NCBI RefSeq assembly: GCF_000149955.1
Contig: NC_030998.1
Span: 248,001 to 312,000 of the forward strand
Origin: Fusarium oxysporum f. sp. lycopersici 4287
Taxonomy: Eukaryota; Ascomycota; Sordariomycetes; Hypocreales; Nectriaceae
Direction: 5' to 3'
Length of the DNA stretch: 64,000 bases
The notes under the pieces were generated by a model, which did not search any database, had not been told where the DNA came from, and worked only from the letters and a program-made list of their open reading frames with translations. Numbering within the stretch: the first letter of the stretch is position 1; every line of letters begins with the position of its first letter. This document shows positions 31,887 through 34,367 of the stretch, in pieces. A program made the position numbers and the translations under genes.

Positions 31887-34367
31887 TCACGCAACCTGGC
31901 TGACCAACTTATCAAACTCATCATCTGTATGCTCCTGAAACGTCCTAAACTTCTCATCCAACAAGGTCTCACCATTTCTAAACCTCTGCATCGTCAGCTT
32001 CTTCCCAGACAATCTCTTCGCCTCAAACAGATCCTCAACATCGACTAGCTCCGGCACAACCGTCGTGCGGAACTCATACGGCACTCCACTGTTCTTTATA
32101 AGGTCAATGCTAGCTTCAAGAAGCTTCGGCTTGACCTTGCGACCTGTAACGCGCTTGTAATTCTCCAAAGCACATTTGATGTCCATCGCAGCAAAGTCAA
32201 CGAGATTTTCGGAAAAGACTTGCTTGAGAATGTCGGGGGATGTGCCGTTTGAGTCGAGCTTGACGCTGATGCCTGCGGATTTGAGGATTCTGAGGAAGGG
32301 GAGGAGGCCTTTGTGGATTGTCGGTTCACCGCCTGAAACAACGAGTGACTTGTGAGACGTTGATGTAATGTGACGGAAGATGTCAACAATGGTAACATCG
32401 TCACACTCTCCCTGGACTAACGGGCCATTGTGACACCAAGGGCAGGCGAGGTTGCAGCGGGAGGTGAACATGATGGAAGCCTGCATCTTGCCTGGGTAGT
32501 CACTCAGAGTACTCTTGATGTAGCCAGCCACGGGGAGATCTTGAATCGCAGCGACTTGCTTCTCCAAGTCTTGAAGCTCATTGTCATCATTCACGCCCTC
32601 CAGCCCCGTCTCATACTTGTACACCTTTCGTTGGACAAACTCCTTCGACTTGCCCCGATTCCAATCCCTCGTGGGTCGGAAGTACCCGACGATACGTGAG
32701 TAAACGAGCGTCGAGTCCCCGCATGCTGTGCACTCTGGTTGCTCACCCGCTCTGTATCCGTGTGTCGGACAAATACTGAACGTTGGAGTTAGTGTGATGT
32801 ACGGAATGCGAAAGCGCGCAGTGAGAGTCTTGATCAAGTCTCTAGCCAACTTCCAACTCGGCAACTGTTCACCGAGAAAGGCATGAAAGACAGTACCACC
32901 AGTGTAAGAACACTGAAGTGCCTCCTGATGACCCATAGCCTCAAAGAGATCCTCCGTCGTGTCGACGGGGAGCATCGTGGAGTTAGTGTAGTAAGTAGGA
33001 ATCTCCTTATCAGGGAAGAGTTCCTTGTCTCGCTTGGCAAACTTGTAGCATGTGCTCTCTGCCGGACTAGCTTCGAGATTGTACAGGTTACCTGTTTCTC
33101 TCTGGAACTCTTGGAGTTGGTCTTTGATTAACTCAAGAACTTCAAGGGCAAAGTCTTTTCGCTCGCCGATACCTTGGCCGAGAAGATCCACGAGTGCTTC
33201 ATTCATCCCGTTGACTCCAATCGTGCTGAAGTGATTGGTCCAGTATGAACCCGTGCGATGCTTGGTAGCTGACAGGTAGTGAGCAGCATAGGGATAAAGC
33301 GTCGAATTCTCGTCCACAAGCTTCCGCTTAATCTCCAAAGAGTCCTTGGCCACTCTTAACGTGCTGGTCAACTCTGCCATGAACGTCTCCTTCGAACCAT
33401 TAGAACGGTATGCCAGATTGGGCAGATTAATCGTGACAACTCCAACGGAGCCAGTCAATGGACTTGCGCCATACTGGCCTCCAACTCTGCAGTGAAGTTT
33501 ACTGAGATCAAGCCTCAATCGACAACACATGGACCGAAAGTCCTCAGGATCGAGATCACTGTTGATGAAGTTGGCAAAGTATGGAACACCATACTTGGCC
33601 GTCATCTCCCAAATAGACTGCCACCGAGGAGATTCCCAATCAATCCCATCAGAAACGTTATAAGTCGGGATGGGGAAAGAAAAGATATTGCCGTTTCCAT
33701 CGCCTTGCATCATGACTTCAGCAAATGCCTTGTTGAGTAAATCCATCTCTTCCTGGAAGTCACTGTATACCCAATCGGTTCGTAACTCGCCGCCAATGAT
33801 AACGCATTGATCGCCCAATCGTTTCGGACAGATCAGATCGAGCGAGAGATTTGTGAATGGAGCTTGGAAACCGCTTCGGGTCGGGACGTTGAGGGAGTAA
33901 ACGAAACTTTGGACATATTTGAAGACATCGGTGTAAGACAGGTTATCGCTGCGGATGAATGGTGCAAGGTACGTGTCAAAGCTAGACAAGGCCTGAGCAC
34001 CAGCGAGTTCACCTTGTAGCGTAAACAGAAAATTGACGATCTGATTGAGCGCGGTGTTGAGATGTTTAGCAGGCCGGCATTGAATCTTATTCTCAACGCC
34101 ACCAAAACCTTGGAGGAGAATATCTTCAATGCTCCAGCCAGAGCAATACGCGCTTAGAAAGCCGAGATCATGGATGTGGAAGCGATTGTCGTGGTCATAT
34201 TGTCGGATTTCTTCGGTGTAGATCTTTTCGAGCCAGTATTGAGAGATGATTTGGTTGGAGACGTATTGCATGAGACCTTGGTGGGAGTAGGTTGAGTTGG
34301 CGTTTTCTGCGGTCTTCCATGTTCCTTTGGCGAGATACTCGTCTACAAGGCCAATGTTGGAAGACAT
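31887..34367 (-). CDS. Fused anaerobic (class III) ribonucleotide reductase and radical-SAM activase
   Basis: One intron-free frame of 826 aa from ATG 34367. Residues ~1-590 are an NrdD-like reductase: FHIHDLGFLSAYC, SMCCRLRLDL with active-site-type Cys, the GSVGVVTINLP core, the zinc site CPTHGY...CTACG near 535 and the glycyl-radical loop RIVGYFRPTRDWNRGKS near 562. The ATP-cone usual at the N-terminus of many NrdD proteins is absent. Residues ~615-826 are an NrdG-like radical SAM activase with GYIKSTLSDYPGK, the 4Fe-4S motif CNLACPWC near 640, VVSGGEPT and AMDIK. Class III enzymes reduce ribonucleoside triphosphates without oxygen, normally with a separate activase. All recognised key motifs are intact. 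The gene type is typical of anaerobic bacteria and archaea, so horizontal acquisition is likely (inference). Confidence 0.92.
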   Translation of the reverse strand: MSSNIGLVDEYLAKGTWKTAENANSTYSHQGLMQYVSNQIISQYWLEKIYTEEIRQYDHDNRFHIHDLGFLSAYCSGWSIEDILLQGFGGVENKIQCRPAKHLNTALNQIVNFLFTLQGELAGAQALSSFDTYLAPFIRSDNLSYTDVFKYVQSFVYSLNVPTRSGFQAPFTNLSLDLICPKRLGDQCVIIGGELRTDWVYSDFQEEMDLLNKAFAEVMMQGDGNGNIFSFPIPTYNVSDGIDWESPRWQSIWEMTAKYGVPYFANFINSDLDPEDFRSMCCRLRLDLSKLHCRVGGQYGASPLTGSVGVVTINLPNLAYRSNGSKETFMAELTSTLRVAKDSLEIKRKLVDENSTLYPYAAHYLSATKHRTGSYWTNHFSTIGVNGMNEALVDLLGQGIGERKDFALEVLELIKDQLQEFQRETGNLYNLEASPAESTCYKFAKRDKELFPDKEIPTYYTNSTMLPVDTTEDLFEAMGHQEALQCSYTGGTVFHAFLGEQLPSWKLARDLIKTLTARFRIPYITLTPTFSICPTHGYRAGEQPECTACGDSTLVYSRIVGYFRPTRDWNRGKSKEFVQRKVYKYETGLEGVNDDNELQDLEKQVAAIQDLPVAGYIKSTLSDYPGKMQASIMFTSRCNLACPWCHNGPLVQGECDDVTIVDIFRHITSTSHKSLVVSGGEPTIHKGLLPFLRILKSAGISVKLDSNGTSPDILKQVFSENLVDFAAMDIKCALENYKRVTGRKVKPKLLEASIDLIKNSGVPYEFRTTVVPELVDVEDLFEAKRLSGKKLTMQRFRNGETLLDEKFRTFQEHTDDEFDKLVSQVA

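Follow-up and report, generated by a model that had tools for sequence, protein, structure and literature searches.

A fused class III ribonucleotide reductase and activase (NrdDG) in Fusarium oxysporum, with its relatives and possible origin

Introduction

Within a window of 64,000 nucleotides from contig NC_030998.1 of Fusarium oxysporum f. sp. lycopersici 4287, one long frame resembles an anaerobic ribonucleotide reductase (RNR) joined to its own activating enzyme. What is this gene, how did its two halves come together and what could it do in a fungus? The answer matters for whether a class III RNR lets a eukaryote replicate its DNA without oxygen, and a one-chain enzyme would be well suited to studies of the encounter between a glycyl-radical enzyme and its activase. 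We conclude that the gene is very probably a eukaryotic NrdDG, i.e. an oxygen-sensitive class III RNR of bacterial origin that is fused to its activase and has been retained in Fusarium as well as in other fungi and certain protists; its activity, mode of activation, reductant and use are what we infer for it.

Results

One intact frame encodes a reductase and its activase

The gene is a single intron-free frame, for which the preliminary description gave the exact coordinates and no strand; it lies on the minus strand. The 826 codons run from ATG to TGA without an internal stop, and the plus strand of the same interval (31887-34367) carries many stops. When the surrounding 6 kb was shuffled 200 times by mononucleotide, no stop-free run exceeded 231 codons, so a frame of 826 codons is not due to chance. 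The gene is divided as follows.

31887..34367, minus strand: fused nrdD-nrdG gene, single exon, 826 aa, ATG at 34367 and TGA at 31889-31887
32610..34367, minus strand: NrdD-like half, residues 1-586, with the class III RNR catalytic barrel and the C-terminal glycyl-radical domain
32544..32609, minus strand: inter-domain linker, residues 587-608, with pLDDT below 50 at residues 586-594 of the predicted structure
31890..32543, minus strand: NrdG2-like radical-SAM activase half, residues 609-826

The fusion of an NrdD-like reductase with an NrdG-like activase, as first read from the letters of this fungal genome, is borne out by Pfam and NCBIfam matches for both halves. The Pfam NRDD match covers residues 21-583 with 590.9 bits (cut-off 26.2) and spans the whole catalytic barrel, which identifies the first half as NrdD, and the Radical_SAM match covers residues 633-776 with 57.1 bits (cut-off 29.5). 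Among NCBIfam profiles, PRK08270 scores 845.9 bits, matched from profile position 103 onward with the first ~100 positions missing, and NrdG2 (TIGR02495) scores 144 bits over residues 613-785 (cut-off 131.15). With this profile above its cut-off and a radical SAM CxxxCxxC motif, the second half is an NrdG-type activase. The predicted structure supports the folds of both halves, and that of the NrdD half matches Thermotoga maritima NrdD.

The preliminary description also held that the ATP-cone is missing. Pfam indeed finds no such domain in the 826-aa protein, which is thus not of the ATP-cone-regulated type, and an exon-by-exon search of the genome found no hidden upstream ATP-cone exon. The sole ATP-cone match found in the genome adjoins the large subunit of the class I RNR on another contig. 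One NRDD locus was found in the Fusarium genome.

Catalytic residues are conserved across fused proteins

The protein has the marks of a class III NrdD, namely the glycyl-radical loop, the active-site cysteines and putative metal-binding residues beside the glycyl loop. The CCR motif with an extra cysteine, which marks the thioredoxin-dependent NrdD2/NrdDh along with an active-site Glu, is present as MCCR. The sites are the following.

34143..34145, minus strand: Cys75, which aligns with T. maritima NrdD Cys125; Tyr74 aligns with Tyr124
33519..33530, minus strand: MCCR finger-loop motif, residues 280-283, probable thiyl-radical cysteine region (motif described in the consulted part of PMC4493059)
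32721..32771, minus strand: C533-x2-H536 ... C546-x2-C549, probable zinc site
32685..32687, minus strand: Gly561 in SRIVGYFRP, predicted glycyl-radical residue, which aligns with the T. maritima RIVGY loop
32433..32456, minus strand: CxxxCxxC, residues 638-645 (C638/C642/C645), read directly and presumed to be the [4Fe-4S] ligands
32325..32333, minus strand: GGE, residues 679-681, read directly and taken by us to be the SAM-binding motif

One position of the putative metal site is a histidine (H536), not a cysteine. The glycyl-radical loop and the Cys, zinc and CxxxCxxC motifs, reported earlier as intact, are so when the residues are read directly. In an alignment of 18 fused proteins, C75, M280-C281-C282-R283, C533/H536/C546/C549, G561, C638/C642/C645 and GGE 679-681 are invariant; the 17 other proteins share 49-86% identity with that of Fusarium. 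All 66 fused proteins that we kept (see below) have the CxxxCxxC motif, and all 66 have either MCC or MC with an intein-like insert after it. Strict patterns recover the YC region in 61 of them, the glycyl loop in 64 and the metal site in 63. In the fused metagenome proteins P0065-P0068, P0070 and P0071 the intein-like insert separates the neighbouring cysteines of the finger loop and hence sits at the catalytic site; the Pfam intein score of P0067 is below the cut-off, and a scan of viral contigs with these insert-bearing proteins found no relative.

The fusion is already known from fungi and oomycetes

Whether such fusions had been described in other fungi was left in doubt by the preliminary description. 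They were published in 2010: the part of Lundin et al. (PMC3019208) that we consulted names NrdDG in Fusarium oxysporum, Gibberella moniliformis, G. zeae, Nectria haematococca, Schizosaccharomyces japonicus and Phytophthora. According to that part, a single open reading frame encodes both proteins in each of its eukaryotes, with S. japonicus as the exception in having the fused gene and a single nrdD. It infers that eukaryotic NrdDG came from bacteria by transfer and proposes a transfer between fungi and oomycetes. As that paper covers the same fusion, F. oxysporum included, fused NrdDG in Fusarium and other fungi is already known. The earlier reading stands as to the fusion, the motifs, the missing ATP-cone and the presence of a class I enzyme, but the fusion is not new. 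The single frame of NrdD followed by NrdG, the bacterial origin and the one eukaryotic group are common to the 2010 account and the Fusarium gene, with no difference of substance. Relative to that account, the Phytophthora row falls outside the named fungi in the present tree and more fungal lineages were found. The small additions are Brettanomyces, Ascosphaera, more Sordariomycetes, a tree built for the activase half by itself and the arrangement of the two genes in operons.

The bacterial PRK08270-type NrdD with a separate NrdG2 (TIGR02495) has the same two families in the same gene order, and MCCR in all 80 loci examined, as in the fungal protein. It differs in being two genes and in a Met-started N-terminal extension of at least 70 aa in 67 of the 80 NrdD frames. 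An ATP-cone is listed for 46 of the 49 non-fused database matches P0073-P0121, but not for three, and the fungal protein is without one. NrdDh (NrdD2) of T. maritima and Neisseria bacilliformis resembles the fungal NrdD half in its YC and CCR motifs and in fold, yet it has SCCR and a separate activase, whereas the fungal protein has MCCR and a fused one. In the consulted part of the T. maritima NrdD paper (PMC4493059), SCCR is special to the subclass NrdDh, and MCCR is found in NrdDh4. A eukaryotic NrdD-NrdG fusion is also reported for Trepomonas PC1 (PMC4967989, in part), as is an NRDD domain for anaerobic gut fungi (PMC6712302, in part). The metagenome protein P0122 likewise has NrdG2 and NrdD in one chain, but in the reverse order, NrdG-ATP-cone-NrdD; in another, P0124, NrdG2 is fused to an adenylate-kinase-like domain. 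The open-licence literature searched yielded no tests of activity, within-chain activation or expression of eukaryotic NrdDG; there, Fusarium or F. oxysporum combined with the enzyme's full name returned nothing, which does not prove absence.

Both halves of the fused proteins group together

The protein database holds fused homologues that match both halves along their length. Seventy proteins have both halves, and 66 were kept after P0028, P0053, P0122 and P0127 were left out as partial or in reverse order. The nearest fused relatives are from Fusarium, at 96, 93, 89 and 88% identity, the closest whole protein being that of F. proliferatum (96%); the nearest activase half is from F. oxysporum f. 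sp. vasinfectum (98%), and the best bacterial NrdD among 120 listed matches reaches 54-56%. Named sources include Fusarium, Clonostachys, Neonectria, Ilyonectria, Apiospora, Grosmannia, Phaeoacremonium, Ascosphaera, Xylogone, Cirrosporium, Brettanomyces, Phytophthora and one Pleurotus record. The last, P0023 from a basidiomycete, is nested among Sordariomycetes in the joint tree and may reflect transfer or contamination. Incomplete gene models were found in F. xylarioides (P0028, 671 aa), Colletotrichum (P0058, without the glycyl loop) and F. oxysporum f. sp. vasinfectum (P0125, the activase half alone), which may be due to misannotation or decay.

Separate trees of the two halves, suggested in the preliminary description, bring the fused rows together in both. 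The NrdD tree has 97 rows (42 fused, 3 stand-alone eukaryote-like NrdD, 39 loci of 160 and 13 database NrdD) and the NrdG tree 98 (42 fused, 3 activase-only eukaryotic models, 38 loci and 15 database proteins), the 42 fused rows being 40 plus 2 of the 6, out of 66, with the intein-like insert. All 45 fused or eukaryote-like rows of the NrdD tree lie on one side of a single branch (SH-aLRT 99), as do all 45 fused or activase-only eukaryotic rows of the NrdG tree (SH-aLRT 99). Support is below 80 at 36 of the 94 inner branches of the former and 40 of the 95 of the latter, and both have long branches. With NrdD followed by NrdG in one frame and an NrdD half that groups apart from bacteria, the Fusarium protein falls within eukaryotic NrdDG. 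Since the fused rows fall on one side of one branch in both trees, a single fusion event would be enough for the pattern, being sufficient and not shown to be necessary by the trees.

The joint tree has 72 rows and leaves out P0122, P0058, P0059, L033, L039, L074, L085 and L104, as well as rows missing a half. The fused group receives 100/100, and 16 named fungal rows and 7 unnamed rows form a clade at 100/100 with the Phytophthora row outside. A recent transfer from one of these named fungi to oomycetes is thus not favoured, and the joint tree may be compatible with an old transfer between fungi and oomycetes in either direction. We also considered separate NrdD and NrdG as the norm in close relatives and rejected it: P0125 and P0126 are activase-only models, P0057 is the stand-alone NrdD of S. 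japonicus, and none shows that the Fusarium pair is normally separate. The NrdD tree nests P0057 within proteins from Pezizomycotina (support 88), which suggests a later transfer from filamentous fungi.

Same-frame neighbours in prokaryotes offer a possible route to the fusion

The prokaryotic set consists of the best 80 of at least 591 confirmed loci, one genome per species, in a ranking that favours nrdD and nrdG in one frame. Within the fetched stretch an nrdG frame is on the same strand in 75 of the 80, and it is adjacent (from a 300-base overlap to 400 bases apart) in 71. The two genes share one reading frame with exactly one stop between them in 20/80 loci, which is not a bacterial frequency because of this ranking, and with two stops in one locus. 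The genes are separate in the bacteria examined, in line with the preliminary description: no true NrdD-NrdG fusion appeared among these best 80 of at least 591 loci, also when the search was repeated with a larger set of NrdG queries and a permissive cut-off. The one apparent fusion, in Anaeromyxobacter terrae (L046:5100-5330), proved to be a frame artefact, in which the open frame leaves that of nrdD shortly ahead of the glycyl loop and continues into the overlapping nrdG, because the gene is broken or the sequence contains an error.

Among the best 80 of 141 viral loci, nrdG is on the same strand in 17, adjacent in 12 and fused in none; a second, overlapping viral scan gave no fused frame in 76 loci, and neither did the two phage records covering at least 80% of the query. 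Plasmid records with a match number 110, of which 26 cover at least 80% of the query, and the 10 listed plasmid rows annotate the activating protein as a separate feature. In an nrdD-nrdG operon with the two genes in one frame and a single stop between them, losing that stop codon would suffice to produce the fused gene, apart from the missing ATP-cone.

Discussion

Could the gene be a stray from bacteria? The protein is of a bacterial family, with bacterial NrdD at the identity given above, and its third-position GC of 0.58 is somewhat higher than in four neighbouring frames (0.47-0.53), as bacterial contamination or a chimeric contig might produce. However, the locus is embedded in a contig of 1.75 Mb, one of the 71 that make up a 61.2 Mb genome, and five of the seven neighbouring frames scanned gave a family match that exceeds the cut-off (M28 peptidase, alcohol acetyltransferase, aminotransferase IV, zinc dehydrogenase and alpha/beta hydrolase), families of fungal type by our reading. 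The overall GC (0.493) is also that of the neighbours (0.48-0.50). On contig size, neighbours and the Fusarium sequences as nearest proteins, contamination, which the preliminary description had named as a way for its reading to fail, is rejected as having a negligible chance. It is also quite improbable that the gene is decaying or repurposed, its frame persisting while the enzyme no longer works as an RNR. Such a fate would fit a class I RNR that covers normal growth, and the partial models in relatives, but the whole frame is intact, the catalytic residues are invariant even in proteins at 49% identity and the cluster cysteines of the activase are kept throughout the 66.

A fusion made in a prokaryotic or viral donor, which then reached eukaryotes already fused, is rather unlikely, though it has points in its favour. 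The deepest fused branches (P0061, P0064, P0065/P0067 and P0069) are metagenome proteins assigned to neither eukaryotes nor prokaryotes, and P0122 is fused, in the reverse order. Against this, NrdD followed by NrdG in one chain was absent from the best 80 prokaryotic loci (of at least 591), the best 80 viral loci (of 141), the 76 loci of the overlapping viral scan and the two long phage matches.

Taking the gene as a eukaryotic NrdDG, we propose that under anoxia its C-terminal domain would use S-adenosylmethionine and a [4Fe-4S] cluster in the reduced state to put a radical on Gly561, either in the same chain or in the partner chain of a dimer. The radical would then move from Gly561 to the finger-loop cysteine (MCCR), and NTPs would be converted to dNTPs. 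NrdDG would thereby provide dNTPs under conditions in which the class I enzyme, which depends on oxygen, cannot work. The same genome has matches to the large and small subunits of class I RNR, in agreement with the expectation that the host also has this class; the small-subunit match crosses a stop, probably an intron. Self-activation and replication under anoxia are plausible.

A role in anoxic growth fits what parts of two papers report. F. oxysporum gains energy by denitrification and ammonia fermentation under limited or absent oxygen (PMC2817877, in part), and S. japonicus gained a squalene-hopene cyclase by transfer, which is linked to sterol-free anaerobic growth (PMC8520639, in part). 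The latter paper connects hopene cyclase in S. japonicus with deoxynucleotide synthesis and growth in the absence of oxygen, citing Lundin 2010, although its text says 'Class-I'. The Fusarium genome contains an oxidosqualene-cyclase-like gene and a squalene-hopene-cyclase-like gene. The latter (L006:1303-3537; contig C14 around 1265091) is in two frames and has a DTDDT motif; both frames match TIGR01507 best, with 250 and 236 bits to a partial profile, each below the whole-protein cut-off. We tentatively offer a possible, if doubtful, scenario in which a one-time loss of a stop codon in a bacterial nrdD-nrdG operon created a self-activating one-chain anaerobic reductase that was then both inherited and transferred among distant eukaryotes. 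In facultatively anaerobic fungi like Fusarium it would work with squalene-hopene cyclase and remove two needs for oxygen, dNTPs and sterols, as proposed for S. japonicus.

As to the reductant, we predict with modest confidence that fungal NrdDG uses a redoxin of the thioredoxin or glutaredoxin type, not formate, because of the MCCR/YC pattern and the phage-like relatives with a C-terminal redoxin domain. The Neisseria NrdDh enzyme uses thioredoxin (PMC4493059, consulted part), and no pyruvate formate-lyase-type Gly_radical match, a potential source of formate, was found in the Fusarium genome. A redoxin tail is present in 0/80 bacterial NrdD, so the reductant stays a prediction. In the first viral scan, 14 of 80 viral NrdD frames, of the MCCR type, have a CxxC-containing C-terminal tail (L122, L125-L130, L135-L139, L143 and L146). 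Some long viral NrdD frames that seemed to run into an activase were rejected as fusions, their tails being redoxin domains. All nine tailed viral NrdD scanned have a glutaredoxin/thioredoxin domain above the Pfam cut-off at the C-terminus, so that in phages an NrdD of the MCCR type seems to come with a reductant built in.
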